35,966 nt of DNA from Bacteroidales bacterium (GCA_023145515.1 JAGLDP010000110.1:1-35966), one strand, 5' to 3'. Positions 8,126-25,737 are shown, counted from the stretch's first letter. Translations and numbers: made by a program. Notes: a model not told the origin generated them from the sequence alone.

Positions 8126-9421
8126 CTATAATCCAAACAGGCTTGGTAGCCATAAACTGATCTGCGGGAAATAAGTGATCAGAAGAAGAGTGATAATCAT
8201 CACCAACCAAAACGGTAGCATGGGTTTTATAACCTGACCAATGCTGACCTTCCCTACACTACACCCAATAAACAATAGAGAACCCACAGGTGGAGTACAT
8301 AATCCTACACTCAGGTTAAGAACCATCATAATGCCGAAATGAATAGGATGAACACCCATCTCTACCACAACGGGCAAAAAAATTGGTGTAAAAATCAAAA
8401 CTGCCGGGGTCATATCCATAAAAATACCCACAAAAAGCAGCAATACATTAATTACCAGCAGTATAACGAACTTATTCTGACTTATATTCAACATGAAATC
8501 ACTCATGTTTTGTGGAATATTCTGGTACGACATGACCCATGAAAGAGCCATCGATGCTGCTACCAGAAGCAATACAATAGAAACAATTTCAACTGTCTCC
8601 AGAATTACCCTTGGCATATCCTTCATCTTAATCTCCTTGTATATCATTGCCAGGGCCAGGGTGTACACTACTGCTATTCCGGATGCTTCGGTGGCTGTAA
8701 AATACCCCGCTACAATTCCGCCTATTACTATTACCAGCAACATCAGACTAGGAATAGCATCGAAGAAACGCCTGACACCTTCTCTAAACCCCACGCTTTC
8801 TCCAACAGTCAGGTCCATCTTTCTGGCATAAAACCAGGCCACCACCATCAGTGATAATCCAACAAGAATTCCGGGCAAATAACCTGCAATAAATAATGCT
8901 GCAATTGAGACCCCTCCACTGGCAAGAGAATATACGATCAGAATATTACTCGGAGGAATGATTAAACCAGTAGTTGCCGAAGTGATATTAACGGCAGCAC
9001 TAAACGGTCGGGGGTAATTATCCTTTTCCATAACCGGACTCATAAACCCGCCAATGGCAGATGCTGAGGCTGCAGCAGATCCTGAAATTGCACCAAAAAG
9101 CATATTGGCAAAAATATTAACAAATGCCAGTCCTCCCGGAATCCACCCCACCATCAATTTGGCCAGGTTAATCAATCGCTTAGCTATTCCGCCCCTGTTC
9201 ATTAACTGTCCGGCAAATACAAAAAAGGGAATAGCCAGCAAGGGAAAGCTATCCAAAGAAGTTGCCATTCTCTGAGCTAAGGTAGTGAAGGTTGCCATTG
9301 GAGCAATACCAACAAACATTGTTAGTACTGCTGCAATTCCAATACTAAACGCAACAGGAACACCAATAAGTAAAAGAACAATAAAACTTATAACCAGAAT
9401 AAGAATGCCAAATAATTCCAT
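8126..9421 (-). CDS. dctM: TRAP transporter large permease (DctM)
   Basis: 431 residues with about 12 hydrophobic helices, the normal size of the large membrane subunit of TRAP transporters, which moves organic acids or sugar acids using an ion gradient. Diagnostic stretches are AIPFFVFAGQLMNRGG, GAISGSAAASASAIG, TGLIIPPSNILIVYSLASGG and GLCTPPVGSLLFIG. It is not a DctQM fusion, since there is no extra four-helix N-terminus. The ATG follows the TAA of the upstream lipoprotein gene with no intervening base, so it is the last gene of the SDR-to-DctM operon. The partners DctQ and DctP are nowhere in the window, so it must use subunits encoded elsewhere or work in an unusual way. Confidence 0.95.
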   Translation of the reverse strand: MELFGILILVISFIVLLLIGVPVAFSIGIAAVLTMFVGIAPMATFTTLAQRMATSLDSFPLLAIPFFVFAGQLMNRGGIAKRLINLAKLMVGWIPGGLAFVNIFANMLFGAISGSAAASASAIGGFMSPVMEKDNYPRPFSAAVNITSATTGLIIPPSNILIVYSLASGGVSIAALFIAGYLPGILVGLSLMVVAWFYARKMDLTVGESVGFREGVRRFFDAIPSLMLLVIVIGGIVAGYFTATEASGIAVVYTLALAMIYKEIKMKDMPRVILETVEIVSIVLLLVAASMALSWVMSYQNIPQNMSDFMLNISQNKFVILLVINVLLLFVGIFMDMTPAVLIFTPIFLPVVVEMGVHPIHFGIMMVLNLSVGLCTPPVGSLLFIGCSVGKVSIGQVIKPMLPFWLVMIITLLLITYFPQISLWLPSLFGL

Positions 9422-10801
9422 TTACTTCTGCTTTTTTGCCAGCTCAAGACCAGCAGTTGTTGTATAATACTTTGCCAAACTATTAGGCACTTCCCAAGCT
9501 GGTAACTCCCCGGCTTTGAGGTACTTTAAAAACTGTGCTGTTACTTGTCCGAAGTGAGCCTCATGTCCTATCCTGTATTCATCCGGAATATTCACCCGAA
9601 ATTCTTCTGCACTCTCATCAAGCTGTACGCCAGGGAATTTCTTTTCTAACACAGAGAATTTATCATTAAGAATCGACAGATATTCTTTACTTGTAGATTT
9701 TGGAATCAAGTATAATTCGGGCTTATAATTCTCAGCAGCACCCTGTCTGATCTCCAGGTCAGCCAAAGTTCCTCTGAGTATTGAATAATGTGTATCGCCA
9801 GCGCCTTCCGGAGCTTGATATTTCCATTCAACCTTAACTCTGGCATGGATATTCTTAAGCTGGTATGTCATCTCGCCATTACAATATACCTGTAACAATC
9901 CGTTCTCATCCAAATCGTTATCCAGATACTCAGGAATCTTGTCCAGACGTGTAACTGCAGAAAATTCCTCCTCTGTCAGTGCGGTAGTCCATCTGCTCGC
10001 CTTAAGAATCTCAATATCCTTTTTGTAATCCAGAATTACCTCAGGGAAGCAGGCCCATTGGATCAGATCTACGAGATGGGTAGTTACATCCACAATGCCA
10101 TCACCTTCTTGAGTAACATCAAAAAACCACGGCGGACGTTTGATTTTATTTCCTGAAACAAACTTAAAGAAATGGTGAACACTTTCTTTAACAACCGATG
10201 GATTATCAGCACTTCCGGGCTCGATAGCACCAAATATTTCAGGAATCAGGCTTAGTTCCTTCTGAAGTCTGGAAGTAATTTCAAAGCGCTCAGTCATAAT
10301 ATCATAGAGCAAAATCCCTTGTTCACCAGCACTTTGATAGGCCTGCTTTAGAAGCTCAAAATCCTGAACATTAATCACCATAGGCTTATCAGCATATACA
10401 TGTATTCCATTTTGAACAGCCTCCAGAATATACTCAGTTTTCTTCTCATTATTCCCTGCAAGAACCAGAACATTTCCTGGTTTCTCCTTCAACATTTTCG
10501 CAAAAAAGTCTGATCCACGATAGGTTTCGCTTATCCAAGCTGTTGGGTTATTCTCACGAGTATTAAATCCCTCTATTCTATTCAGGTGATCATCAACATC
10601 TGCAGCATCAGGAGCAAAAATAAATACCTCAGGATTCAACTCCGGAAACATCTCTTTCTGCACCAGGGCAGCATGAAAATGACCAGGATCAACAGTCATA
10701 AACGTAGCAATATGAGCAGATTCCTGTTTAGTGTTAGTGCAGGACATTGTGAGCAAAATTAAAAATACAGATTGAAGAATGGAGAATACAGAATATTTCA
10801 T
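9422..10801 (-). CDS. Lipoprotein Gfo/Idh/MocA-like protein with degenerate nucleotide loop
   Basis: 459 residues. A Sec-type lipoprotein signal (LLTMSC, Cys21) means it is exported unfolded. The body resembles Gfo/Idh/MocA oxidoreductases with the 'putative oxidoreductase C-terminal' domain common in Bacteroidota: DPGHFHAALVQKEMFPELNP, EKPGNVLVLAGNNEKKTEYI and VYADKPMVINVQDF, with the DKP lysine (Lys139). The NAD-binding GxGxxG loop is replaced by DPGHFH (38-43), so cofactor use is doubtful. The signal peptide contains a seven-residue repeat (YSVFSIL then QSVFLIL, residues 3-16) encoded by a heptamer DNA array. It lies between the TAT oxidoreductase and DctM genes, in the same operon. It could be a sugar-binding or non-redox relative. 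Confidence 0.85.
   Translation of the reverse strand: MKYSVFSILQSVFLILLTMSCTNTKQESAHIATFMTVDPGHFHAALVQKEMFPELNPEVFIFAPDAADVDDHLNRIEGFNTRENNPTAWISETYRGSDFFAKMLKEKPGNVLVLAGNNEKKTEYILEAVQNGIHVYADKPMVINVQDFELLKQAYQSAGEQGILLYDIMTERFEITSRLQKELSLIPEIFGAIEPGSADNPSVVKESVHHFFKFVSGNKIKRPPWFFDVTQEGDGIVDVTTHLVDLIQWACFPEVILDYKKDIEILKASRWTTALTEEEFSAVTRLDKIPEYLDNDLDENGLLQVYCNGEMTYQLKNIHARVKVEWKYQAPEGAGDTHYSILRGTLADLEIRQGAAENYKPELYLIPKSTSKEYLSILNDKFSVLEKKFPGVQLDESAEEFRVNIPDEYRIGHEAHFGQVTAQFLKYLKAGELPAWEVPNSLAKYYTTTAGLELAKKQK
10769..10796. repeat. Heptamer tandem array inside a signal-peptide coding region
   Basis: On the plus strand: AGATTGA, AGAATGG, AGAATAC, AGAATAT, four units of 7 bp. Translated on the minus strand it gives the seven-residue repeat of the lipoprotein signal peptide at 10801. 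The first unit is the most diverged. Confidence 0.65.
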
Positions 10802-10855
10802 TACTAAACCTAAAACTTAATACAAATCACTTTTTACTTCCTTTTGCCTTCCTGC

Positions 10856-12220
10856 CTAAACATAGTCAGTTCCATAAGGAAACCGCTGCTGTCTGCTAAG
10901 CATAGCATTTGCTGCATCATTATTCAAGAATCGCTCCTTAACCGGATCCCAATGCAATTTACCAGGTAACTTCATGGCAATACCGCCAAGCAAGCACGCA
11001 GAACAAGAGCGATGAGCAACCTCAACCGGAGCAATAGGTTGCTTAAGAGCAATCATACTATCCACCCAATTGAAATAATGGTTACTACTATGATAGAGGT
11101 TAATTTCATCCTTGCCAATTTTTGATGTGAGGATTTTTGGATCGCTGGCATCAAGAGATTTTCGATTTTTGTCGAAAGTCACAGGATCACTATCGGTTAC
11201 CTTATAGCTGCCACGAGTTACAAAAATCCATCCTTCTGAACCCTCAAAGCGAACTCCATTTGGAAATTCACCACTCACAAGCATATTAGTTCCATTGGCA
11301 TACTTTGCTTTCATCATAAAATCGCCATGCACATTCCAAAGACCACTTTTTGGGAAATCTGCTTCAGCCTCAACTTCAATCGGACCGCTGAACTCTGTTC
11401 CCATGCCCCAGTGGGCGATATCTAAATGATGTGCACCCCAGCCGGTAATCATTCCTGCACCAAACTGATCGCATCTTAGCCAACCCGGACGACTATAATC
11501 GTGCTGAGGGTGAACTCTTTTCTCAGTATAATAAGCATTAGGAGTTGACCCCAGCCACATGTTGTAATTCAGATTTTTTGGGATAGGCATTTCTAATTCC
11601 TCTTCTCCTCCGGGATCACCCGGAAGACCAACTTTTATTGTGTGAATATCACCAATGCGTCCATTTCTGACTAGTTCACATGCATACCTGAATTGCTCGG
11701 CAGACCGCTGCTGAGAACCTATCTGGAAAGTCACTCCTGAACGATGAACAGCATCACTCAATTGTCGGCCTTCCTTAATCGTCAGAGAAGTAGGCTTTTG
11801 AAGATAAATGTTTTTTCCGGCTATGGCAGCTTCAATGGCTGGCTGTGAATGCCAGTGGTCAGGTGTACTGATAACCACACCATCAATATCCTTATTCATC
11901 AGAAGTTCTCGATAATCACCATACATTTTTACATCCACGGCATTAGGCATTCCCATTTTTGCATAATTGTCCATGATCAGTTTTTTTCCATCCATCATCC
12001 TTTTGGAATCCAGATCACATACTGCCATGAAACGCACTTTTTCATGCCGCATCACACCATTAAGGTCACCACGACCCATACGGCCGCAGCCTATCTGAGC
12101 GATGTTTACACGATTGCTGGGCGCATTTTTGCCCATCACAAAAGAAGGAACAATTGTAGGTACAATGATAGCAGCAGTTCCGGCTACACCTGTTGTTTTG
12201 AGAAATTTTCTTCTGTCCAT
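10856..12220 (-). CDS. TAT-exported Gfo/Idh/MocA family oxidoreductase
   Basis: 454 residues. It begins with a twin-arginine signal (DRRKFLK, hydrophobic stretch to about residue 30), so it should cross the membrane folded with its cofactor, as glucose-fructose oxidoreductase does. The Rossmann loop is intact (IGCGRMG, 43-49). It has a QKPTSL segment with the catalytic-type Lys141, and GWGAHHLDIAHW (259-270) with the His/Asp cluster of the C-terminal sheet. Members oxidise or epimerise sugars and inositols, often at C3. Upstream is ThuA (12 bases) and downstream the lipoprotein relative (54 bases containing a loose G/A-rich repeat). ThuA plus Gfo/Idh/MocA recalls keto-sugar pathways such as ThuA/ThuB for trehalose. 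Substrate unknown. Confidence 0.92.
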   Translation of the reverse strand: MDRRKFLKTTGVAGTAAIIVPTIVPSFVMGKNAPSNRVNIAQIGCGRMGRGDLNGVMRHEKVRFMAVCDLDSKRMMDGKKLIMDNYAKMGMPNAVDVKMYGDYRELLMNKDIDGVVISTPDHWHSQPAIEAAIAGKNIYLQKPTSLTIKEGRQLSDAVHRSGVTFQIGSQQRSAEQFRYACELVRNGRIGDIHTIKVGLPGDPGGEEELEMPIPKNLNYNMWLGSTPNAYYTEKRVHPQHDYSRPGWLRCDQFGAGMITGWGAHHLDIAHWGMGTEFSGPIEVEAEADFPKSGLWNVHGDFMMKAKYANGTNMLVSGEFPNGVRFEGSEGWIFVTRGSYKVTDSDPVTFDKNRKSLDASDPKILTSKIGKDEINLYHSSNHYFNWVDSMIALKQPIAPVEVAHRSCSACLLGGIAMKLPGKLHWDPVKERFLNNDAANAMLSRQQRFPYGTDYV

Positions 12221-12231
12221 TTTATTTCAAT

Positions 12232-12245
12232 TTTAGGCTTTAGGC
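12232..12245. repeat. Heptamer repeat at the ThuA 3' end
   Basis: Two perfect copies of TTTAGGC on the plus strand (12232-12238, 12239-12245), followed by TTTATTA. On the coding strand AAAGCCT-AAAGCCT encodes the last residues (KPKA) and the stop codon of ThuA. Only two full copies, so weak alone; notable with the other arrays in this operon. Confidence 0.55.
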
Positions 12246-13081
12246 TTTATTATAGGAATGAGTAAGTTATTAGTTTCTAGTTCCGTTGCGCTTGCTTTTG
12301 AGAAATCTACTGCGGGCTTGTCGATTGTCCAGAGAATTCCACCTAATACATGCTGGCGGAAATTCGAATCAGAATAGTGCTTTATGCTGTGTCCGTAGCT
12401 GGTGTACCATTCTTTGCCTCCGTCAAATTCATGGCACCAGGCTCCAGGGTATAAATCTCCAAATATCGTTCCCGGATAATCATCTTTTCCTTTATCCTCT
12501 ATCGTAGTCATATCGTGAGATAGTAATACATGGACATCAGGATTAAGATGGTGCAGATAATAACCTTCGTCTTCCCATTTCCAGTCGCCGGCAAAAAATT
12601 CAGTTGATGGATGATTGGGATCGGTTATTATGACATCAAATTTCTGGTACGGACAATGCCTTACAAATGTGCCACCCAGCATTTTCCAGAACCAGGGCCA
12701 CTGACGCTCGCTACCACAGGCTGAATGAATACCAACAAAGCCTCCACCCGCCTGAATATACCTTTTGAATGCCAGTCGTTGTTCGTTATTGTCAAATGCT
12801 TCATTATTAGTATTCGAGAAAATCAAGGCATCATATTGAGCCAGATTATCCTCTGTGAAAAGTGAAGGATCTTCAGAAATATCATACTCAATCTCGTTAT
12901 CATTGCACAGAGCAGTCAGCATATCAACTGATGCCTGGATGTTATCATGGATAAAGCCCTTTCCATTTTTAGTGTAAATGAGTACTTTTTTACCATCCTG
13001 TTTTACTGTTGGGGAACAGGAAAATATCAGGGCAGAAAGGCAGAAAAGCAGTAAGGCATAAAGGGGAAATGCTCTATTCAT
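12233..13081 (-). CDS. ThuA-domain lipoprotein
   Basis: 282 residues. Signal peptide with lipobox IFSC (Cys22). The body is the flavodoxin/glutamine-amidotransferase-like ThuA fold: KVLIYTKNGKGFIHDNI (His45), a YDALIFSNT strand, GGGFVGIHSACGSE (His119) and FGDLYPGAWCHEFDGGKEWY, ending with GHS. ThuA acts with a Gfo/Idh/MocA enzyme in trehalose and related disaccharide use in rhizobia, and ThuA domains accompany secreted sugar enzymes in Bacteroidota and Planctomycetes; its precise chemistry is unsettled. Here both neighbours are secreted too, suggesting a periplasmic or surface step. Its signal peptide is encoded by an octamer array and its C-terminus by a heptamer repeat. Confidence 0.9.
   Translation of the reverse strand: MNRAFPLYALLLFCLSALIFSCSPTVKQDGKKVLIYTKNGKGFIHDNIQASVDMLTALCNDNEIEYDISEDPSLFTEDNLAQYDALIFSNTNNEAFDNNEQRLAFKRYIQAGGGFVGIHSACGSERQWPWFWKMLGGTFVRHCPYQKFDVIITDPNHPSTEFFAGDWKWEDEGYYLHHLNPDVHVLLSHDMTTIEDKGKDDYPGTIFGDLYPGAWCHEFDGGKEWYTSYGHSIKHYSDSNFRQHVLGGILWTIDKPAVDFSKASATELETNNLLIPIIKPKA
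13033..13064. repeat. Octamer tandem array in the ThuA signal peptide
   Basis: CAGAAAGG, CAGAAAAG, CAGTAAGG, CATAAAGG on the plus strand, four 8-bp units, possibly a fifth (TATCAGGG) before them. Read on the minus strand it encodes the hydrophobic core of the signal peptide (about PLYALLLFCLSA). Because 8 is not a multiple of 3, the repeat is a DNA-level pattern, not a consequence of repeated residues. Confidence 0.75.
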
Positions 13082-13091
13082 AGATTTAAGT

Positions 13092-14405
13092 TTATTGCGG
13101 ATTAAGGTACGAAATTTTTATCGCTGGCTGATTGGCATAACTCTTCCAGGCAACATCAGCAATATCGGCAGGTAAATCTCCTTCATTAACCCATATTCTA
13201 TAGCGCTGCGAATAGCTTTTGCCAGACTCAAGAATCCAGGTTTTCTCACGGATGGGAGTAAATTCAAAAAACTGATGTCCGATTCCTCCGGTAGAATTTT
13301 CAGGCCAGATTCTCATCAGTTGAGGGAAATCATAATTCCCCGGATCACTCAAAAATAATAGTCCGGTTTCTATTCCATTCAGATCACCACTTACCCTACA
13401 CCATTTAGCTCTGGTAGCATCTCCATTTTTCCAGGTCTTTCCTTCTGAAGTCAAAACCTGAGAATTAGTATTATTCCACTTTTCGGTAGCCCGATAGCCC
13501 AATCCGCCACCATAGCGGTAAGCATCCAAAGAAACAGTATCATCTGTTACATTCGTTAGCACTGAAGTAAAGTCAAGGAAATATCCATCAGCAATATTCC
13601 AAACACGAACAATCCACTCTTCAGTCATAACAACAACTTCACTACGTTCTTGGGTCTTAGGTCTTAGGTCTTGGGTCTTATTAAGCGCCACATGATCTTG
13701 TACCACTCTGAATTCTGAAAAAACCTCTCCTGATTCAATTCCTGTAATATTTTTAAATCTAACTGTACCCTGTTCATCTCCCAGGTTCCAGAAATCGGTA
13801 TGATTCCCTTTCCATGTCACTCTGGTCCATGGATTCCAAAGACCCATGTGATGAAAATGATCTGGCGGCTGCACCCATGTAAGCACCTCACCTGCCGGAG
13901 AATATAGAGGATGAATAAACCCACTACGTGCCCACTTATCTGCCTGTCCGGACGGTGGTGGCAATAAGGCATGGCGATAATGCAGAATCGGGTGATGATT
14001 TTTTGATAATATTATTGTTGTGTCATTGATGGATGATGTCATTTGTGATTGTTGTTGTGATTGCAAATCATGCATTACTTCAACAAATAATTCAAAAACC
14101 CGTACAGAATCACCATTTGATTCAATCACCCACGACAATTCATCAAATTCGCCATAACGAATCTGACTGGAAACTTCAACTCGCTCATCATCAATCACTT
14201 CTTGAAGCTGATATACAACGCCCTGCTGAACAACCCCGGATTTCAACTGAACCCGAACCGGGACAGATATCCCCTGAGTCACTGGGTCACCTATTCCCTG
14301 AATCTCAATCCTTGCCACCGGCTCCTGAGCAAACCCAGAAACTGAAACAAGAATCACAAATAACAACAATATCTGAGTAATCCTTTTCATCATTCTACTT
14401 GACAT
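13092..14405 (-). CDS. PmoA/DUF6807 family secreted protein
   Basis: 437 residues. The start ATG shares a base with the SDR stop (TAATG), supporting this start over the internal ATGs at codons 5 and 6. A type I signal peptide ends near SVSGFAQ. The body is the beta-sandwich family named PmoA (now DUF6807), with HHPILHYRHALLPPP, PPDHFHHMGLWNPW and TDFWNLGDEQGTVRF. Despite the name it is not methane monooxygenase. It occurs in carbohydrate-use clusters of Bacteroidota and Planctomycetes and may act on modified sugars. Two low-complexity insertions stand out: QSQQQSQ near residue 120, and NKTQDLRPKTQERS, encoded by a heptamer array. Function inferred only from context. Confidence 0.85.
   Translation of the reverse strand: MSSRMMKRITQILLLFVILVSVSGFAQEPVARIEIQGIGDPVTQGISVPVRVQLKSGVVQQGVVYQLQEVIDDERVEVSSQIRYGEFDELSWVIESNGDSVRVFELFVEVMHDLQSQQQSQMTSSINDTTIILSKNHHPILHYRHALLPPPSGQADKWARSGFIHPLYSPAGEVLTWVQPPDHFHHMGLWNPWTRVTWKGNHTDFWNLGDEQGTVRFKNITGIESGEVFSEFRVVQDHVALNKTQDLRPKTQERSEVVVMTEEWIVRVWNIADGYFLDFTSVLTNVTDDTVSLDAYRYGGGLGYRATEKWNNTNSQVLTSEGKTWKNGDATRAKWCRVSGDLNGIETGLLFLSDPGNYDFPQLMRIWPENSTGGIGHQFFEFTPIREKTWILESGKSYSQRYRIWVNEGDLPADIADVAWKSYANQPAIKISYLNPQ
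13648..13680. repeat. Heptamer tandem array inside the PmoA-family gene
   Basis: Plus strand TCTTGGG, TCTTAGG, TCTTAGG, TCTTGGG and partial TCTTA: four full 7-bp units (13648-13675) plus a fragment. In the coding frame it yields KTQDLRPKTQ with KTQ repeated at a seven-residue interval. Gain or loss of one unit would shift the frame and truncate the protein. Confidence 0.9.
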
Positions 14406-15229
14406 TACACTCCACTGAAGGCACTAAATCCACCATCGATGGGCAATACTACGCCCGTTACAAATTTTGCAGCATCACTAAGAAGGTACATAACAGCGCC
14501 GCTTAGTTCATCAGCCTCACCAAATCTACCCATAGGAGTTTTACGAATCACATCCTGACCTCTGGGAGTAAAGCTCCCATCCTCATTGGTTAATAATCGA
14601 CGGTTTTGTTCACCTATAAAAAACCCGGGGGCAATAGCATTTACGCGAATCCCTTCTCCGAATTTCTGAGCCATCTCAGTGGCCAGCCATTGAGTAAAAT
14701 TAGAAATTCCTGCTTTAGAAGCTGAATACCCCATTACACGTGTAATTACTGGTCCGGCTGCCATTGAAGAAATATTCAGAATTGATCCCGATTTTTTATC
14801 GGCCATCACTTTTCCAAATACCATAGTAGGAAGAACGGAGCCTATGAAATTCAGGTCCATTACTTTTCTCAGAGCATCAATTTTAAGATCGAAAAATGTT
14901 TGATCTGGTCCGATTGTGGCCCCTGGCATATTTCCGCCTGCTCCATTTATGAGAGCATCAATGCCCCCATATTTCGCCAGAACAGCTTCGCGGGCCTTCT
15001 CAAGGCTATCCTCCTCCAGCACGTTAGCAGCAAGACCAATGGCCTCACCTCCTTTGTTAGATATTTCTTGGGCACGGTTTTCAGCCCTCTCCAATTCCAG
15101 ATCAAGAATTACCAATTTGCAACCTGCCGCAGCTAGTCCATCTCCAATGGCAGTGGCCAAAACACCAGCTCCTCCGGTAATAAGTACAACTTTCCCCTGA
15201 AGCTTGAATATCTGTTCGATATAACTCAT
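14405..15229 (-). CDS. SDR oxidoreductase, D-mannonate/fructuronate-type
   Basis: 274 residues, cytoplasmic. Classical short-chain dehydrogenase: cofactor loop TGGAGVLA (18-25), NGAGGN (95-100), Ser near 154, and the catalytic Tyr168 and Lys172 in GYSASK. The IAPGFFIGEQNRRLL and PIDGGFSAFSGV stretches match the group annotated as D-mannonate oxidoreductase (UxuB-like SDR) in Bacteroidota, which reduces or oxidises hexuronate-derived ketoacids. No UxuA or uronate isomerase is in the window, so another keto-sugar may be the substrate here. It is the first gene of the operon ending in DctM. A TATCTTTG element and a 14-bp palindrome lie immediately upstream. Confidence 0.9.
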   Translation of the reverse strand: MSYIEQIFKLQGKVVLITGGAGVLATAIGDGLAAAGCKLVILDLELERAENRAQEISNKGGEAIGLAANVLEEDSLEKAREAVLAKYGGIDALINGAGGNMPGATIGPDQTFFDLKIDALRKVMDLNFIGSVLPTMVFGKVMADKKSGSILNISSMAAGPVITRVMGYSASKAGISNFTQWLATEMAQKFGEGIRVNAIAPGFFIGEQNRRLLTNEDGSFTPRGQDVIRKTPMGRFGEADELSGAVMYLLSDAAKFVTGVVLPIDGGFSAFSGV

Positions 15230-17595: not shown

Positions 17596-19818
17596 CTATT
17601 GCTCCTCCCCCTTCATTAAAAACCTGAGCTCTCCCCCATCCATAATCTCCTGATGCGTTATCCAGGTACGATCGAGCTTATCTCCATTGAGGTAAACCTC
17701 TTCAACCAGGTAGTTTTCGGGACTCAAATTTTCAGCCAGAACTGTAAAATCCTTATCTGCTTCCAATTTCAGCACCAGCTTATCAAATGCCGGGGTTCCT
17801 AATTGATATTTTCCATCAGCAGGATTAAAAGGATAAAAACCCATGGCACTAAAAACGTACCAGGCCGACATTTGTCCGCAGTCTTCGTTACCACACAATC
17901 CATCTGGTTTATCTGAATATAATTCTGTTCGAATACGATGAATTAATTCCTGAGTTTTTTGTGGCTGTCCGACAAAGTTGTAGAAATAAGCCGTATGATG
18001 ACTAGGTTCATTACCATGAGCATATTGCCCGATCAATCCGGATATATCCGAAGAAGCAAACTCTCCCTCAACGCCTTCATTATGTGTAAATAAGGAATCT
18101 AGCTTGGAAGCAAAATCTGCCTTACCTCCCAGCATTCCGATAAGGACTTCCGGATCATGCGGAACAAACCAGGTGTATTGCCAGGCATTACCTTCAGTAT
18201 ATTCATCATCACGATGGTTACTGTACAATGGGTTAAATCCGGGTTTCCAGGAGCCATCAGATAATTTGCCTTGCATGAAACCGGTTTCATGATTAAAAAG
18301 GTTCTTGTAATTTGCAGCACGCTTCATGAAATAATCATATTCATCTTGCTTATCCAGTATTTTCGCCAATTGGGCTATACACCAATCGTCATAAGCATAT
18401 TCAAGAGTAATGGAAACCGACTCGTTGACAAGGTCAGCCGGACAATATCCAAATTCTCTGTACTCTTTACATCCTCTGATATCTTGCATGGCAGAAGCTT
18501 TTACCGCTTCAAAAGCCAATTCATAATCGAATTCAAATCCCTTTGTAGCTGCGTCCACTATAACCGGAATTGCATGATATCCAATCATACAATTTGTTTC
18601 ACAGCCCTCTAGTGTCCATACCGGCAACAATCCACTTTCCTGATAATGAACCAGCATTGCATTGATCAGATCAGGTATCAAATCGGGCTGAAACAGAGTA
18701 AAGAGCGGATGATTTGCTCTGAAAGTATCCCATAAAGAAAAAACAGTATAATTATCCCAACCATCAGTTTGGTGAACCTCCCGGTCAATCCCCCGGTACA
18801 AGCCATCAACATCCGAGAATACATTTGGCGCAATAAAACTGTGATACAGAGCAGTATAGAAAGTCCGCTTAAGAGCCGGATCAGAAGTTTGAACTCCTAC
18901 TTTTGCCAGCTGCTCATTCCAAAGTGCACTAGCATCGCGCTTGTATTTGTTAAACTTCCAATGTGGAGCCTCAGCGATGAGATTCTTCAAAGCACCATCT
19001 GTGTTGGTAGGAGAAATAGCCACTTTTACCATAAGGTCAGAAATCTCACCAAAAGAAATAATCGCTTCAGTAGACTTCTCGTTTACCAATGATACACCTT
19101 CAACCTCCATTCCGGCCTCAAACAGTTGATGACTGATAATAGGTTTTGAAAAACTGGCTACAAAGTATACATGTTGATTATTAGACCAACCTTTGGATCT
19201 GCGATAACCCTTTATCAGCGTATCATTAACAACATGAATACGGGTTTCTGCCGGACTATCCCAATTTATGGCAAAACCCAAATCAATCACAAGATTAGCA
19301 GGTTTCCCAGCCGGGTATTTATAACGATGGATGCCAACTCTTGGAGTAGCAGTAAGTTCTGCCTTAATAGGATTCTCCTTAGTTTCCCAATCTCGAAAAG
19401 TCAAGGCATAATATCCCGGACAAGCGGCTTCATCTTCATGACTATACCAGCTTTTGAATCTTTGACTAAAATCCTTTGGAGGCAAGAACTCTCCTTTTTC
19501 CAAATTACTAACCGTAGGCTTAAACAAAATATCAGCAAGATCTCCAATTCCAGTTCCACTAAGATGTTTGTGAGAGAAACCTACCAGGGTAGAATCAATC
19601 CAGTTATATCCTGAACACCAATCCCATCCACTGACACCGTTATCCGGACTAAGCTGCACCATTCCGAAAGGGGTTGTTGCCCCTGGAAAGGTGTGGCCGT
19701 GATCGTCAGTTCCAATAAAAGGATCAACAAAACGTGTATAATCAGTATTATCCTGGGTTGAGCAGGAAATAGCCATCACTGCAACAATCAGTACTACAAA
19801 TCTATATAGAGTATTCAT
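17596..19818 (-). CDS. GH92 alpha-mannosidase lipoprotein
   Basis: 740 residues from ATG 19818; a TTG seven codons upstream would put charged residues before an otherwise normal signal, so ATG is preferred. The export signal ends AISC (lipid anchor likely). GH92 hallmarks appear in order: FVDPFIGTDDHGHTFPGAT, GFSHKHLSGTG, GCETNCMIGYHAIPVI, GNEPSHHTAYFYNF and GNEDCGQMSAWYVFSAMGFY. These include the acidic residues that bind calcium and catalyse in this calcium-dependent inverting family. GH92 enzymes remove alpha-linked mannose, mostly from N-glycans or fungal mannans; the exact linkage is not predictable. It starts 21 bases after the ROK kinase stop, an obvious pair. Confidence 0.95.
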   Translation of the reverse strand: MNTLYRFVVLIVAVMAISCSTQDNTDYTRFVDPFIGTDDHGHTFPGATTPFGMVQLSPDNGVSGWDWCSGYNWIDSTLVGFSHKHLSGTGIGDLADILFKPTVSNLEKGEFLPPKDFSQRFKSWYSHEDEAACPGYYALTFRDWETKENPIKAELTATPRVGIHRYKYPAGKPANLVIDLGFAINWDSPAETRIHVVNDTLIKGYRRSKGWSNNQHVYFVASFSKPIISHQLFEAGMEVEGVSLVNEKSTEAIISFGEISDLMVKVAISPTNTDGALKNLIAEAPHWKFNKYKRDASALWNEQLAKVGVQTSDPALKRTFYTALYHSFIAPNVFSDVDGLYRGIDREVHQTDGWDNYTVFSLWDTFRANHPLFTLFQPDLIPDLINAMLVHYQESGLLPVWTLEGCETNCMIGYHAIPVIVDAATKGFEFDYELAFEAVKASAMQDIRGCKEYREFGYCPADLVNESVSITLEYAYDDWCIAQLAKILDKQDEYDYFMKRAANYKNLFNHETGFMQGKLSDGSWKPGFNPLYSNHRDDEYTEGNAWQYTWFVPHDPEVLIGMLGGKADFASKLDSLFTHNEGVEGEFASSDISGLIGQYAHGNEPSHHTAYFYNFVGQPQKTQELIHRIRTELYSDKPDGLCGNEDCGQMSAWYVFSAMGFYPFNPADGKYQLGTPAFDKLVLKLEADKDFTVLAENLSPENYLVEEVYLNGDKLDRTWITHQEIMDGGELRFLMKGEEQ

Positions 19819-19839
19819 AAAATAAAGTTTCTTTCTCAA

Positions 19840-20814
19840 TCATTTCTTCCCGTTCTCAAAAGTATCCCAGGCCAAGGCGCTGGCACCCAGAACTGCAGCA
19901 TTTTTCGAATTGAGTTGCGAAGGCAAAAGATCCACTTTGCCTTTATAAATACTCAGCAGATTTTCTTCAAAATGTCGCTTGGCAGGCTCAAATATCAGTC
20001 CTTTAGATAGTGCGAGTCCACCAAACAAGAAAATAGCCTCAGGATTTGTATGGGCTACTAAATCAGCTAGTTTGAACCCCAGCATTTCACCGGTATGTTC
20101 GAATGCCAGTTGAGCCAAACTATCACCAGCCAAAGCAGCTTTTGAAATATCGAGAGAGCTTAATTGATTCGGGCTCAAATCTCTTAAAACAGAGGGCTTT
20201 ATAGAGTCAGCAAGAATCTTCAGCATGGTACGTGTTATTCCGGTTGCAGAAACATAAGTTTCAAGACATCCAAGTCGTCCACAGCCACACTCGCGGTTGG
20301 TTCGTCCCGGACGAACAATGGTATGTCCAATTTCACCAGCAAATCCATCTTGTCCATACAAAAGCTTGCCGTCTACAACAAAACCACTTCCTAATCCTGT
20401 TCCAAGAGTAATTATCACAAAGTTCTTCATTCCTCTTGCACCTCCGTAGATCATTTCTCCAACGGCAGCAGCATTTGCATCATTGGTTACCAGAACGGGC
20501 AAATTGATTTGCTCTTTAATCAGATCAGCCAGCGGAACAATTCCTTTCCAGGGTAAATCAGCAGAGTGTTCAATAGTACCCTTATTGATATTGCCCATAG
20601 GAGCGCCTATACCAATACCGATAATATCGAGATCTTTCTCGCACCTCGCTCCTGCTAGTCTGGCTTTTTCAACCAGGGCAGCGACATACACTTCCACCTC
20701 TGAAAAATTACGGGTTTCTAAGTGACCTTCGATCAGGACTTCTCCATCCCTGTCAACAAATGCAAAATCGGTATTTGTTCCACCGATATCAATTCCTAAA
20801 GCTACTTTAGTCAT
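19840..20814 (-). CDS. ROK-family hexose/N-acetylhexosamine kinase
   Basis: 324 residues, cytoplasmic, complete ROK kinase: DIGGTN (9-14), catalytic Asp112 in TNDAN, GTGLGSG (138-144), GEIGH (160-164), and the zinc motif CGCGRLGCLE with Cys176, Cys178 and Cys183. The GEIGH glutamate and histidine are typical of glucose, N-acetylglucosamine or N-acetylmannosamine kinases. Given the deacetylase, SIS enzyme and phosphofructokinase just upstream, phosphorylation of an N-acetylhexosamine is the best reading; mannose or glucose from GH92 products are alternatives. A strong intrinsic terminator lies between this gene and the SIS gene, so its expression is set by read-through or by an unseen promoter. 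Confidence 0.93.
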   Translation of the reverse strand: MTKVALGIDIGGTNTDFAFVDRDGEVLIEGHLETRNFSEVEVYVAALVEKARLAGARCEKDLDIIGIGIGAPMGNINKGTIEHSADLPWKGIVPLADLIKEQINLPVLVTNDANAAAVGEMIYGGARGMKNFVIITLGTGLGSGFVVDGKLLYGQDGFAGEIGHTIVRPGRTNRECGCGRLGCLETYVSATGITRTMLKILADSIKPSVLRDLSPNQLSSLDISKAALAGDSLAQLAFEHTGEMLGFKLADLVAHTNPEAIFLFGGLALSKGLIFEPAKRHFEENLLSIYKGKVDLLPSQLNSKNAAVLGASALAWDTFENGKK

Positions 20815-20834
20815 GGTTATGTAGGTTCTGGTTC

Positions 20835-20867
20835 AAAAAAAACGGAGAATGATAACTCATTCTCCGT
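20835..20867 (-). terminator. Intrinsic terminator downstream of the SIS gene
   Basis: On the minus strand: a perfect 11-bp stem ACGGAGAATGA / TCATTCTCCGT (20842-20867) with a 4-base loop, running directly into eight T residues. It is correctly oriented to end the transcript coming from the SIS gene. Only about 20 bases separate its T-run from the ROK start codon. Confidence 0.9.
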
Positions 20868-20904
20868 GCAATATAATAGTTTTTTTCCAGAGTTTTTCCA
20901 GCTA

Positions 20905-21918
20905 TCAGAGGATATACTCATTTCCTACTTTACGGGCCCGTACTGGTTTATCCAGATCAATGCCCAGGGCTATACCAATATCAACCAAGAGGTTCCATCC
21001 GGCTGCCAATTCAACATACTCTTTAAATGCTCCACCATCAGGAATAAGGAAGGTTGGGAAACTTGTCTGTCGCGAAGAAATCGCTATTACTTTCATTGCC
21101 ACTCCATCAATCAAACATTCGGCAAATTTCTGTTCTTCACTTTCAAATGGATCAACAACAACCAGCACTTCATTAGCATCCATCACCTCCTCAATACCAT
21201 GCACCGCGTAGGTACCTTCAAGGAAGTCTGACTTCTTCCTGGTGATTTCATTTGTTTTAAGAGTTAATTCTTCTGCAACTCCTGTATTTCTACCTGCAAA
21301 ATAAATCTTATCAGCATTTTTAAGGATCTCTATTAACTCAGGATCAATTGTTGCTGTCAATGCTTTTTCAATATCTCTGGCAAGTTGATCCAGACCGTCT
21401 AGATCTGTTTCTGAAAGATGGTGAAGAACAGAATCAAAAAACAAGCCTTGTTCAATGACAGACTTTGTTGCAGCAACTGCATCTTCTGTACCGCAATTCA
21501 TAACGTGTGTATCCATGGAAATCTGCTCAAGGGTAGTATCCTTGTTAGCTGTCAGTCCAAAAAAGGCATCATGTCCCTCTTCTTTGAGTTTCATAAATAA
21601 GCGAACAACTTCTTTGGTTTTTCCAGAATTGGATGCGCCAAAAACAGCATAATCCTTAAGCTTATACTCCATAGCCTGAGTTGAACCCTCTGTCATTATA
21701 GCCATTGGGCCACCATCTTTCAAGACATCACAGATGGCTCTTTTAGCAGGAAAAATACGACTACTTCCTTCGCCTGTTAGGAAAAGGGCCTTTTTCTTCT
21801 GAATAGCTTCAGCAAATCGCTTTGTTGAAGCATGAGAGAATTGATTGACCACATCACTTGTTTCGAGCATTTCCCGAACTAGTGCATATTTAGAATATTT
21901 TGGATCTGAAAGATTCAT
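20905..21918 (-). CDS. SIS-domain sugar isomerase/aminosugar-6-phosphate deaminase
   Basis: 337 residues, two sugar isomerase (SIS) domains as in the isomerase half of GlmS. The first has GEGSSR (49-54) and ASNSGKT (95-101), the Ser/Thr-rich loop that grips a sugar phosphate. The second has AGRNTG (208-213), then NEITRKKSDFLEG with acidic residues Glu224 and Glu234, and VHG. Proteins of this size without the glutaminase domain include archaeal GlmD, bacterial NagB-II and AgaS-type deaminases, which turn hexosamine-6-phosphate into ketose-6-phosphate plus ammonia; fructosamine deglycase is another possibility. The PIG-L deacetylase gene directly upstream (16 bases) favours the amino-sugar role. 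Confidence 0.85.
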   Translation of the reverse strand: MNLSDPKYSKYALVREMLETSDVVNQFSHASTKRFAEAIQKKKALFLTGEGSSRIFPAKRAICDVLKDGGPMAIMTEGSTQAMEYKLKDYAVFGASNSGKTKEVVRLFMKLKEEGHDAFFGLTANKDTTLEQISMDTHVMNCGTEDAVAATKSVIEQGLFFDSVLHHLSETDLDGLDQLARDIEKALTATIDPELIEILKNADKIYFAGRNTGVAEELTLKTNEITRKKSDFLEGTYAVHGIEEVMDANEVLVVVDPFESEEQKFAECLIDGVAMKVIAISSRQTSFPTFLIPDGGAFKEYVELAAGWNLLVDIGIALGIDLDKPVRARKVGNEYIL

Positions 21919-21934
21919 AATCTGGAGTATTTAT

Positions 21935-22699
21935 TTACTTAACAATTGTTACATTTCTAGCTAGTTCCAGCTGTACAATTGGGTCCTTTTGAAACCCGCC
22001 ACCGAGATGTTGCCAGAATACTTCGGCATATTCTACCTCAGCCATTTTGCCATAATCTTTGTTTCCCTGGTAAACTACCCCAAAGAAATCATCCATTTTA
22101 TGCATAACCTTCATCAGGGTTTGCTGAGACTGATGATACTGGAGCATTTCGCGCTTAGTATCCATCACAGAACTAACATCAACAATGAAATGTGGTGGAG
22201 CAATTGGGGCTCCAATCGGATCAGTCAGGGTTAGTGGTGCAGTATGATACAACAAAGGAGTAATCTCAAGAGGCTCCTCCTCAACCGGTACATTTGGCAG
22301 AGTGGCTACGATGGTAGCAGCTTCAACCATATTACATGTAACCCGGTGATCTACATGGTAATCCATAGGTAGATGAGTCATCACTATACCTGCTTTATAC
22401 TTTCTCACCAAAGATGTTATCTTCAGCCTTAACTCCTCTGTGTCAAACAGATACCCATCTCTCCCCTCGAAACAATGATAATCTGCGTCCAATACTGCTG
22501 CAGCTTTTCGGGCTTCCTCTCTTCTGATATCTATGGTAGTTTGCTCATCAGAACCAATCCCGCCCATACCACCGGCTGTAAGGGTAGCTATAACTATTTT
22601 ATAGCCTCTTTCTTTTAACAATTTCAGTGTTCCTGCACACCACGCTTCTGTATCATCAGGGTGAGCATGAATTGATACTACAACATTATTAAATCTCAT
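21935..22699 (-). CDS. PIG-L/LmbE-family N-deacetylase
   Basis: 254 residues, no signal peptide. Zinc site as in LmbE/PIG-L deacetylases: AHPDDTE (12-18, His13 and Asp16) and DYHVDHR (113-119, His115, Asp117, His118). The family removes N-acetyl groups from GlcNAc-containing molecules (PIG-L, MshB, BshB, archaeal diacetylchitobiose deacetylase). Its ATG overlaps the phosphofructokinase stop (ATGA), and the SIS gene follows 16 bases later, so the three enzymes are probably coupled. I infer that it takes the place of NagA by deacetylating an N-acetylhexosamine or its phosphate. A bacillithiol-type role is less likely, because no partner glycosyltransferase is adjacent. Confidence 0.9.
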   Translation of the reverse strand: MRFNNVVVSIHAHPDDTEAWCAGTLKLLKERGYKIVIATLTAGGMGGIGSDEQTTIDIRREEARKAAAVLDADYHCFEGRDGYLFDTEELRLKITSLVRKYKAGIVMTHLPMDYHVDHRVTCNMVEAATIVATLPNVPVEEEPLEITPLLYHTAPLTLTDPIGAPIAPPHFIVDVSSVMDTKREMLQYHQSQQTLMKVMHKMDDFFGVVYQGNKDYGKMAEVEYAEVFWQHLGGGFQKDPIVQLELARNVTIVK

Positions 22700-23898
22700 T
22701 TTACAAACATCTTTTCTAATTCAACAAACTCTGGCAATTCTCCTATTAAGGGACGGATATAATCATAAAAGGCTTCACTAACGAAGTTCCCTCTGTCATT
22801 AAAATATTCAAAAGGTACAGGCTTGGCCTTTACCGCTACATCATTCAGAAGAGCTTTCCCGAAACTAACAATATATGGCGAACTGCTGATCCGATTTATG
22901 GCAACCATGAATCCTGATTCCTCAGCATTTGCAATCTTAACAGCCTCAATTCCACATTGAAAAGCCTCATCTAAATCAAGCCGACTAGCACGTACAAAGT
23001 CTGACATTATCAAAGACTCTGTAATCTGGAATTCTCCTCTAAAACCAAAATTATCACTAATAAATCTATGCAAATTCAATCCTACGCTGGCTCCGCCCAT
23101 AGCACCAAATTCAGTATTATTAAACTTATCCTTTGTTGCAGAGGCGCTAACAGCAGTTCCATCAGCATATTTTAAGCCTTCACCACAAACAACTGAAACC
23201 CAACCATACTTCTTATAAACAGTCTCAACATCCTCAAGGAATTTCATTTTATCAAATGTAAATTCAGGAGAATATATCAAGTGAGGAGCATCATCAGCTG
23301 AGCGACGAGCGAGAGCCGTGGCTGCTCCCAACCATCCAGAATCCCTGCCAATTGTCTGATAAACCACAAACTGATCCACTTTCTTCATGCCTCGCGCCAG
23401 AGCTCCGCCCTGCATCACGTTGAGGATATTACTGCGGGCAGCTGATGCAAAACCAGGGGTGTGATCAGTACCAAACAAATCATTATCAACTGTTTTGGGA
23501 ATTCCAATCCCAACCAGCTCATAATTCTCTTTGCGACAATACTGCTCAACACGATTAATCGTATCCATTGTGTCATTTCCACCAATCAGGAAGAAGTAAC
23601 GGATATTGTATTTTTTTAACACCTCCAGAATCCTGGGGAAATCTTCATCCTGAACCTTATGACGAGATGAACCCAAAGCAGAACCCGGAGTCCTTCTCAA
23701 ACCTTCCAGAATTTCTTTTGGTTGATTGCCCAAATCAATTAGCGTTTCCTGCATGAAACCTTCAATGCCGAAATTCATACCGTAAATTGATTCAATTCGG
23801 GGAGACCGGGTAGCACCATCAATCACTCCAGCCAAACTGGAATTTATAACCGATGTAGGGCCTCCCGATTGTCCTATGATAGCATTTCCTTTTAACAT
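22696..23898 (-). CDS. PPi-type 6-phosphofructokinase
   Basis: 400 residues, cytoplasmic. PFK signatures: GQSGGPTSVIN (9-19), IGGNDTMDT (105-113), PKTVDND (134-140) and GRDSGWLG (184-191). Asp109 and Lys135 stand at the two positions that are Gly in ATP-dependent E. coli PfkA and Asp/Lys in pyrophosphate-dependent enzymes. The protein should therefore use PPi to make fructose-1,6-bisphosphate reversibly. Tagatose-6-phosphate or sedoheptulose-7-phosphate are possible substrates for relatives. It is followed by PIG-L with a 4-base overlap and preceded by the CBM9-like gene. Its presence among sugar-processing genes suggests that it handles ketose-6-phosphate made by the SIS enzyme. Confidence 0.92.
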   Translation of the reverse strand: MLKGNAIIGQSGGPTSVINSSLAGVIDGATRSPRIESIYGMNFGIEGFMQETLIDLGNQPKEILEGLRRTPGSALGSSRHKVQDEDFPRILEVLKKYNIRYFFLIGGNDTMDTINRVEQYCRKENYELVGIGIPKTVDNDLFGTDHTPGFASAARSNILNVMQGGALARGMKKVDQFVVYQTIGRDSGWLGAATALARRSADDAPHLIYSPEFTFDKMKFLEDVETVYKKYGWVSVVCGEGLKYADGTAVSASATKDKFNNTEFGAMGGASVGLNLHRFISDNFGFRGEFQITESLIMSDFVRASRLDLDEAFQCGIEAVKIANAEESGFMVAINRISSSPYIVSFGKALLNDVAVKAKPVPFEYFNDRGNFVSEAFYDYIRPLIGELPEFVELEKMFVK

Positions 23899-23920
23899 GC
23901 TGTAAATTTAAGAAAAATCT

Positions 23921-23940
23921 GTTCTATTCTGTTCTATTCT
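23921..23940. repeat. Duplicated decamer
   Basis: GTTCTATTCT occurs twice in a row just upstream of the PFK gene, covering the stop region of the CBM9-like gene at 23939. A simple local duplication; no further copies. Confidence 0.6.
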
Positions 23941-24589
23941 ACTCAAACTCTAAAACACCAAAATACTCTGGCTGGTGATAATCAGGGTTCTCCGTTCCAA
24001 CCGGATTCCATGTGAGATAATGCATCTCTGAAAGACTATCACCACACTTGTAGAAATTCGCCCTGATTAATTTACCTGATAGATTAGGAACAGGACTACC
24101 AAAGAGAATGTCAAGCGGAATTGCCACTGTGAGAGTCCAGCTCTGTTTACCTTGCTTTTCATCAAAAGGTTTGTCTCCAAGACTAGACAAACGCCTTATT
24201 CTTTCAATTATATCTGCATTCTGCACCTGACTATCATGTCGACCCTTTCCTTTGCCCAACAAACATGTTCCAATTGGGTTAAACTCAAAATTGAAATACG
24301 GACCATCAGAAACCGGAGTAACAAAAAACTCAACACAAGAATCCTGGCAAACAGATTGGTTAGATTCTGACTTCTGAGCCATAACATAATTCTCTGTCAC
24401 ATAGTATTTCACATACAACTCTCCTTTACCATAAGCAATATTAAATCTCACTTCTGGCTTATAATCATACTCATCCCAATTTATGATACTTATAGGGGCA
24501 CCCACTCCAAAGCTATCGAGAAGTGAAGAGATCTCATCCATCGGAGTGTGAGAGGTGGTTTTGAGGTGCTTTATTAATAGTTTTTTCAT
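23939..24589 (-). CDS. CBM9-like carbohydrate-binding protein without signal peptide
   Basis: 216 residues. Recognisable as the Bacteroidota 'carbohydrate-binding family 9-like' fold: INWDEYDYKPEVRFNIAYGK, then CQDSCVEFFVTPVSDGPYFN, FNFEFNPIGTCLLGKGKGRH, and a closing GEL-type strand (HQPEYFGVLEFE). The CVEFF/NFEFNPIG pattern is diagnostic. Unusually for a sugar-binding domain, there is no signal peptide; the N-terminus is charged (KKLLIKHLK), so it is predicted cytoplasmic. The ATG overlaps the MFS stop (ATGA), and the PFK gene follows. It may bind imported sugar or act as a regulator, but I know no demonstrated function for this stand-alone form. Confidence 0.85.
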   Translation of the reverse strand: MKKLLIKHLKTTSHTPMDEISSLLDSFGVGAPISIINWDEYDYKPEVRFNIAYGKGELYVKYYVTENYVMAQKSESNQSVCQDSCVEFFVTPVSDGPYFNFEFNPIGTCLLGKGKGRHDSQVQNADIIERIRRLSSLGDKPFDEKQGKQSWTLTVAIPLDILFGSPVPNLSGKLIRANFYKCGDSLSEMHYLTWNPVGTENPDYHQPEYFGVLEFE

Positions 24590-25737
24590 TTCCTTAACGC
24601 GATAACACCGATATACACAAAACAGAGGATTGGAACAATAAATCCTGCCATTAAACTACCAGTAATATCAGCTACAGCACTAAACAACATCGGAACAAAA
24701 GCGCCTCCTATGATGGCTGTTATCATCAATCCAGATAATTCGTTTGAACGTTCCGGCATTTTTTCGATTGCAATGGAAAAAATCATCGGGAAAATATTTG
24801 CAAACCCAAGTCCTGAAATAAAAATTGCAGCAATAGCTACAGCTTTTACAGGAATAAATAATCCTACCATCCCAACCAAGGCTGTGAATGTTGAAATAAT
24901 CAGAAATTGACGAGCACTGATCCAATTGAGTACCAATGCACCTGAGAATCGACCTATTAGGATAGCAGTCACAACAAATGCCGATCCCAATAATCCCCAT
25001 GTTTTAAGATCAAAATCATAGATTTCTTGCAGATAAATTGGAATTTTAGAAAAGAGACTAACTTCAGCTCCAACGTAGAAGAATATACCCAAAACCATGG
25101 AGAGCACGTATTTGTTTTTCAGTAACAACAAGCAGGATTTCATAGTTGGATACTGGCTCTCATCTGTCTTACTCTCATTAATCTTGGTAAGCGCCAGGAT
25201 GAATACTGTGAGAAATAATCCGATACTATAAATAGGAAATAATAGTTTCCAATCCATATCCCACCACTTAACAGCAGCAACAGGAATAAGCATACCTGAC
25301 AAAGTACCAATCGCCTTAATAAACTGTCCGAAAGCCAGATTTCTGGAATACTTTCCCTCTGGAGACACGTCTCTCATAATTGGATTTCCGGCCACTTGAA
25401 GAATAGCTGAACCCGCGCCTAAAAACAGAACAGAAACAAGCAAAAGAGCAAACACATCGAATCCAAAAATAGTTGGAATCAAGAGTCCGAGAAGTGCAAC
25501 GACCAAACCAATTTGCAAAACAAATTTCTTACCCTTTCGTCCCTGATAAATCCCCATTGGCACCGATAGTACCCCAAACATGATAAGTCCTACGAAGGTT
25601 ACTAATTGAGAAGAAGTGTGAGAAAGAGCGAATTCATCCTTCAATAGAGCAGATAAAGGACTAACTACGTCTCCAAAACCCATGCACAAGAAGGCCAGGA
25701 AAATTGGAGTTGATCTGTAAAGATTTTTTGTACTCAT
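24586..25737 (-). CDS. FucP-like MFS sugar transporter
   Basis: 383 residues with about 12 membrane helices. The GAGSAILQVAGNPIMRDV stretch and FGQFIKAIGTLSG are typical of the fucose/glucose/N-acetylglucosamine:H+ symporter group (FucP, GlcP, NagP). The protein should import a monosaccharide across the inner membrane. Its stop overlaps the CBM9-like start, and the downstream genes encode kinase, deacetylase, deaminase and PFK, so an N-acetylhexosamine is the favoured cargo. Fucose from GH95 action is an alternative, but no fucose isomerase or fuculose kinase is present. The flippase gene ends 17 bases upstream. Confidence 0.9.
   Translation of the reverse strand: MSTKNLYRSTPIFLAFLCMGFGDVVSPLSALLKDEFALSHTSSQLVTFVGLIMFGVLSVPMGIYQGRKGKKFVLQIGLVVALLGLLIPTIFGFDVFALLLVSVLFLGAGSAILQVAGNPIMRDVSPEGKYSRNLAFGQFIKAIGTLSGMLIPVAAVKWWDMDWKLLFPIYSIGLFLTVFILALTKINESKTDESQYPTMKSCLLLLKNKYVLSMVLGIFFYVGAEVSLFSKIPIYLQEIYDFDLKTWGLLGSAFVVTAILIGRFSGALVLNWISARQFLIISTFTALVGMVGLFIPVKAVAIAAIFISGLGFANIFPMIFSIAIEKMPERSNELSGLMITAIIGGAFVPMLFSAVADITGSLMAGFIVPILCFVYIGVIALRK

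Follow-up and report, generated by a model that had tools for sequence, protein, structure and literature searches.

Can six adjacent genes of a Bacteroidales genome break down an N-acetylated hexosamine without NagA or a classical NagB? The question is raised by positions 19840 to 25737 of the window, the whole stretch of 35,966 nucleotides from Bacteroidales bacterium (GCA_023145515.1, JAGLDP010000110.1:1-35966) that was analysed here. The answer favored by the gene families and motifs is affirmative. It is fairly probable, and well short of assured, that this operon degrades such a sugar, most likely GlcNAc freed from glycans, to fructose-1,6-bisphosphate. An MFS transporter would import the sugar, a PIG-L enzyme would take the acetyl group off the N-acetylhexosamine, a ROK kinase would phosphorylate carbon 6, a SIS-domain enzyme would deaminate and isomerise the hexosamine-6-phosphate to fructose-6-phosphate and ammonia, and a dedicated pyrophosphate-dependent phosphofructokinase (PFK) would convert fructose-6-phosphate to fructose-1,6-bisphosphate. 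Gene order, conservation, catalytic motifs and nearest families are read from the sequence; we infer the substrate, the order of the steps, import by the MFS protein and any role of a CBM9_2 domain protein.

Organization of the locus

Genes were identified with Pfam and NCBIfam profiles. The six of them are co-directional on the minus strand and are transcribed in the order MFS, CBM9_2, PFK, PIG-L, SIS and ROK. They encode a probable sugar importer of the MFS family (24586..25737; 383 aa; MFS_1, 107 bits), a CBM9_2 domain protein (23939..24589; 216 aa; PF16011, 218 bits), a PFK of the pyrophosphate type (22696..23898; 400 aa; Pfam PFK, 140 bits), a PIG-L (LmbE) family deacetylase (21935..22699; 254 aa; PF02585, 88.7 bits), a SIS-domain sugar-phosphate enzyme proposed as a hexosamine-6-phosphate deaminase (20905..21918; 337 aa; SIS, 37 bits) and a ROK-family sugar kinase (19840..20814; 324 aa; PF00480, 197.7 bits). 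All six Pfam scores exceed the curated cut-offs (28.2 for PIG-L and 22.9 for ROK). Four-base ATGA overlaps join MFS to CBM9_2 and PFK to PIG-L, and the remaining intergenic gaps measure 40 (CBM9_2-PFK), 16 (PIG-L-SIS) and 90 bases (SIS-ROK). The coordinates and Pfam identities thus bear out the run of overlapping or closely spaced genes described in a first-pass annotation of this DNA. The limits that it gave to the block, 19840-25737, do enclose these six genes, but the unit is longer, since another gene (17596..19839, minus strand) follows ROK with no gap and probably belongs to the same transcription unit; its product falls in the GH92 alpha-mannosidase family and carries what appears to be a lipoprotein signal.

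Elsewhere in the window, positions 8126-15229 carry, on one strand, genes for a TRAP DctM protein, two Gfo/Idh/MocA proteins, ThuA, DUF6807 and a mannonate-oxidoreductase-like SDR; the last three keep their position in the relative G001 (L020).

Transporter, kinase and deacetylase

The NCBIfam models nearest to the MFS protein are gluP, fucP and NagP, every one scoring below its cut-off. No N-terminal signal sequence is apparent in the CBM9_2 protein, whose gene keeps its place between those of a kinase and of PFK across the family; it would be unusual for a carbohydrate-binding domain to be intracellular. The ROK protein is nearest to the ROK glucokinases (TIGR00744, 208 bits, below the cut-off of 260) and reaches 88 bits with NagK (PRK13310), where 380 are required. 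Deacetylation before phosphorylation is slightly favored because of this greater resemblance to glucokinases.

The PIG-L family assignment made at first pass is well founded: the PF02585 score stands far above its cut-off, and the catalytic HPDD and DH motifs are present, within HAHPDD at residues 11-16 (HPDD at 13-16) and YHVDH at residues 114-118. Their key His and Asp residues are invariant in seven sequences. The best-scoring specific model, BshB1 (TIGR04001), gives 111.4 bits, below its cut-off of 182.5. Among solved structures its closest relatives are TT1542, Dac, BcZBP and BshB, TT1542 being ahead of Dac (8bgn) in a phmmer search (68 against 59 bits). A PIG-L protein 37-40% identical to that of the window adjoins a 309-aa protein in G327 and G359 (L069:7627-9599 and L070:7726-10568). 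This neighbor matches NagB weakly (27 bits for a cut-off of 237), so that a candidate sugar-phosphate deaminase accompanies this type of PIG-L there too. In L070, a Gfo/Idh-type gene lies immediately upstream of PIG-L.

A putative SIS deaminase and a pyrophosphate-type PFK

The SIS protein gives weak NCBIfam matches to GlmS (31.7 bits), NagB-II (31.6 bits) and, over its first half only, the hexulose-phosphate isomerase HxlB (37.5 bits). Across an alignment of 11 members, the NagB-II and GlmS profiles were matched by all, HxlB by 10 and GlmD by 5, while a PGI/PMI model was touched by a single one (E 0.008). The NagB-II cut-off (NF046059, 430) is reached by none of the 11, all of which are weak matches. 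For GlmD (NF041128, cut-off 580) the window SIS is unlisted and the five members concerned match weakly; the homologue in L077 scores 32 bits. No AgaS model was found among the NCBIfam matches, and the N-terminal glutaminase domain of GlmS is absent from this 337-aa protein, in which SIS is the sole domain matched. A profile search of solved structures returned at the top 2cb0, an archaeal GlmS-like SIS protein deposited as a glucosamine-fructose-6-phosphate aminotransferase, the NagB-II structures 8eol and 3hba, and GFAT. By hhalign, the SIS profile aligned with E. coli GlmS at 95%, with FrlB at 72% (first half only) and with E. coli AgaS at 7%, rough figures obtained with single-sequence templates.

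In the same type of alignment, K221, E224, H240 and K330 of the SIS protein fall on Lys485, Glu488, His504 and Lys603, the catalytic residues of E. coli GlmS. Their equivalents do not vary across the SIS alignment, and they recur in G253 and in the second of the two SIS pieces of G633 (L077, L113). By themselves, these Lys, Glu, His and Lys residues cannot separate deaminases from isomerases. The protein is nearest to NagB-II, GlmS and GlmD and is proposed to be a hexosamine-6-phosphate deaminase. The first-pass call of a deaminase is therefore retained as to the complete set of GlmS-type residues and the proximity of the profile to GlcN-6-P deaminases and GlmS, but the scores are far below the GlmD and NagB-II cut-offs, so that the protein is assigned to neither family. 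More generally, the specific profile scores of SIS, PIG-L and ROK all lie below curated cut-offs, which counts against the pathway proposed here. AlphaFold models, computed from alignments of two or three sequences, had a pLDDT of 33 for SIS and 49 for PIG-L, too low to be of use.

The operon PFK scores 394.9 bits with PRK14072 (cut-off 273), and its GGND and PKTVDND motifs place Asp and Lys at the donor-discriminating positions, 104 and 124 in E. coli PfkA numbering, Asp and Lys there marking pyrophosphate as opposed to ATP enzymes. The pyrophosphate type proposed in the first-pass annotation is upheld as a prediction by this score and by both residues. Since three more PFK matches occur in the window's genome, one of them ATP-type (GGDGS, PGTIDND), the operon PFK is an additional, dedicated enzyme.

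Conservation in the family and recurrence in another class

The SIS gene was found in all 12 genomes of the family, at 68-77% identity. The succession PFK, PIG-L, SIS is shared by the window and eight relatives (G001, G002, G003, G004, G005, G009, G010 and G011), so that the neighborhood, whose loss in relatives was to have spoken against a pathway, survives the comparison. In two others the contig stops, inside a PIG-L gene that adjoins SIS (G007) or at SIS itself (G008). The remaining relative, G006, counts against the proposal: a deletion (L029:9468-11166) took the C-terminal half of PFK and the entire PIG-L gene, and SIS, both ROKs, GH92 and GH125 are still there. CBM9_2 occupies the same place in relatives (53-63% identical). 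Upstream of it, most relatives carry an additional ROK gene, which shares about 51-54% identity with the window's ROK and is absent from that place in the window. The MFS gene is present in G001 and G003; in the genus g4 it has been replaced at this position or is missing from it. The gene set first described as a unit is accordingly kept in its PFK-PIG-L-SIS core, but neither the MFS gene nor the second ROK is constant. GH92 holds its place in G001, G003, G005, G006, G007 and G009, and GH125 lies upstream of the block in G006, G009 and G011. Because these genomes are related, conservation in the family alone constitutes moderate evidence of function.

A wider survey covered 392 genomes, all of the phylum Bacteroidota. 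SIS homologues of this type were found in three of them and close PFK homologues in two, the window's genome and G253, and the module is present in both. If PFK and SIS were unrelated, the single other genome with PFK would be one of the two other genomes with SIS by chance at about 2 in 391, a figure that ignores phylogeny. G253 belongs to another class, and in it PIG-L, a glutamine-amidotransferase-like gene, PFK (55%), SIS (54%) and ROK are adjacent; a NagA gene (TIGR00221, 353 bits, cut-off 226) stands beside this module in the opposite direction, which speaks for the amino-sugar reading. PIG-L, PFK (53%), a SIS gene split in two (56% and 61%) and ROK are also found in G633, from a different family of the same class. 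The neighborhood sought among Bacteroidota was thus met again, and its conservation in the family together with this recurrence of PIG-L, PFK, SIS and ROK in another class makes the gene block more than chance. The PIG-L proteins of G253 and G633 share about 21% identity with that of the window (E 0.03). They represent a different subfamily, apparently recruited separately for the same role, which suggests that it is deacetylation as such that has been kept. We regard this as the best evidence for PIG-L deacetylation as a part of the pathway.

The SIS subfamily also occurs in other Bacteroidota where it is accompanied neither by PIG-L nor by PFK and stands by itself or next to a DUF4954 gene, a distribution that weighs against the proposal. 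Indeed, other genomes of the order have SIS relatives 42-59% identical with neither gene alongside. In L031 and L032, of the same order, and in G666, of the other class, SIS adjoins DUF4954; the enzyme is therefore able to serve in another context. SIS directly follows the DUF4954 gene in these three genomes from two classes (L031:9003-12271, L032:1021-4280 and L112:7614-10846), which is a second conserved partnership; the DUF4954 product has hexapeptide, GlmU-like left-handed helix repeats and a DUF6819 part. As a query against genome contigs, the window's SIS retrieved only two loci. A further SIS relative (L037:3611-4462), 57% identical and cut by the contig end, comes from a short contig in a bin assigned to Thermogutta (Planctomycetota), where bin contamination is possible.

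NagA and NagB elsewhere in the genomes

The pathway had been proposed at first pass to operate without NagA or NagB. No Glucosamine_iso or NagA match was found in the window's own genome, but this assembly is 62.8% complete and its completeness cannot settle absence. The claim holds for G004 (92% complete) and G005 (99%), the only two family relatives without NagA-like, NagB-like and long NagB-like proteins. It fails for several others, whose NagA-like or NagB-like genes speak against the proposal: NagA-like genes occur in G001, G002, G007 and G011, and NagB-like genes in G001, G003, G007 (partial) and G011. Five genomes, G003, G006, G008, G009 and G010, encode long NagB-like proteins of the PRK02122 type. 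Proteins of this sort, 777-832 aa and below the PRK02122 cut-off, were located at L114:5530-7920, L119:553-2937, L120:961-3459 and L124:132-2465, and that of G006 has a PIG-L-like C-terminal part (PHHDD). The strongest Glucosamine_iso matches among the relatives (PF01182, about 1e-62) were rejected as NagB and read as 6-phosphogluconolactonases. They carry GEDGHTASIFP or a close variant and mostly adjoin glucose-6-phosphate dehydrogenase; an NCBIfam scan of one of them, L042, gave 6-phosphogluconolactonase at 182 bits. Because NagA-like and NagB-like genes vary among relatives, some members may have no other route, and others a second one beside it.

Alternative substrates

The GH92 and GH125 neighbors of the block are as suggestive of mannose as of GlcNAc, which weakens the case for the latter. 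GH92 and GH125 could free mannose, to be used by a ROK mannokinase, a SIS phosphomannose isomerase and finally the PFK, with PIG-L acting on something else. Such a route agrees with GH92 being part of the gene run both in the window and in relatives, and with GH125 upstream in G006, G009 and G011, and bifunctional PGI/PMI enzymes with a SIS fold exist. However, a type I phosphomannose isomerase is already present in every genome of the family, and this function for SIS was marked down accordingly. The isolated PGI/PMI match reported above does not help it, and PIG-L and the NagA gene adjacent to the module of G253 would be left unexplained; we regard the mannose route as improbable. About equally improbable is that the substrate of PIG-L and SIS is a conjugate (for example of the GlcNAc-malate or GlcNAc-inositol type, or a glycated compound) and not a free sugar, the operon then serving to salvage it. 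The best score of PIG-L is indeed with BshB1, and the deglycase FrlB shares the SIS fold, but its alignment covers only the first half of SIS, no bacillithiol genes lie nearby and the conserved block is devoid of a hydrolase for such a conjugate.

A galactosamine version, unlikely as well but less so than either of these, takes GalNAc to GalN-6-P, which SIS would convert to tagatose-6-phosphate and PFK to tagatose-1,6-bisphosphate, in analogy with the Aga pathway. The gene set does parallel Aga, with a kinase, a deacetylase, a SIS deaminase (AgaS is also a SIS protein) and a phosphoketohexose kinase. Moreover, fructose-6-phosphate needs no dedicated PFK where ATP-type PFKs are present, a point against the GlcNAc reading, and with several other PFKs in these genomes a dedicated one fits tagatose-6-phosphate better. 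Against it, the SIS profile is much nearer to GlmS than to E. coli AgaS in hhalign, the NCBIfam matches include no AgaS model, and tagatose-bisphosphate aldolase was not seen in any neighborhood read. Degradation of GlcNAc to fructose-1,6-bisphosphate is thus preferred.

Comparison with known systems

Every enzyme family of the operon is already known. A literature search, with most subscription papers outside its reach, did not turn up this combination of genes with an operon-encoded pyrophosphate-type PFK. It can be suggested, with considerable doubt, that the operon represents a distinct bacterial route, in which a new SIS clade of hexosamine-6-phosphate deaminases works with an obligate PIG-L partner that deacetylates the free sugar and with its own pyrophosphate-driven, possibly reversible PFK. 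Such a route would be shared by a Bacteroidota family and another class of the phylum and would be the sole complete N-acetylhexosamine route of some members.

Three bacterial systems are comparable. The long NagB-like proteins of Bacteroidota (PRK02122) likewise couple a PIG-L-like domain with one resembling hexosamine-6-phosphate deaminases, but theirs is a NagB fold in a single fused protein with a PIG-L-like C-terminal part, whereas a SIS protein is found here. The Aga pathway for GalNAc (AgaK, AgaA, AgaS and tagatose-6-P kinase; PMC5583593, PMC3668189) has the same reaction types in the same order, ketose-phosphate kinase included; the present operon differs in its PIG-L deacetylase, and an AgaS-type SIS and a tagatose-bisphosphate aldolase are missing. 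In the GlcNAc pathway of the Shewanella/Xanthomonas type, organized as nagP-nagB-II-nagA (PMC5583593, PMC13055268), a SIS deaminase, an MFS importer and a hexosamine kinase are shared, whereas the operon has PIG-L in place of NagA, plus PFK, and its SIS remains at 31.6 bits for a cut-off of 430.

A further parallel is archaeal. It is the chitin route of Thermococcales, with Dac (PIG-L family), GlmA and GlmD (SIS family), the original work on which is referred to in PMC3512248, and both the replacement of NagB by SIS deaminases and the use of PIG-L deacetylases in archaeal chitin degradation are on record (PMC5583593, PMC3512248). In both cases PIG-L deacetylation and SIS deamination replace NagA and NagB, with a phosphofructokinase downstream in metabolism. 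The block studied here differs in being without an exo-glucosaminidase or chitinase, in a SIS protein far below the GlmD cut-off and in a PFK that is of the pyrophosphate type and inside the operon. The presence of a ROK kinase is a further difference from the archaeal route. If the proposed pathway is correct, amino-sugar use in some uncultured Bacteroidota would be missed by annotation pipelines seeking NagA and NagB, the pyrophosphate-type PFK would acquire a specific setting, and a bacterial pathway would have converged on the archaeal combination of PIG-L and SIS enzymes.
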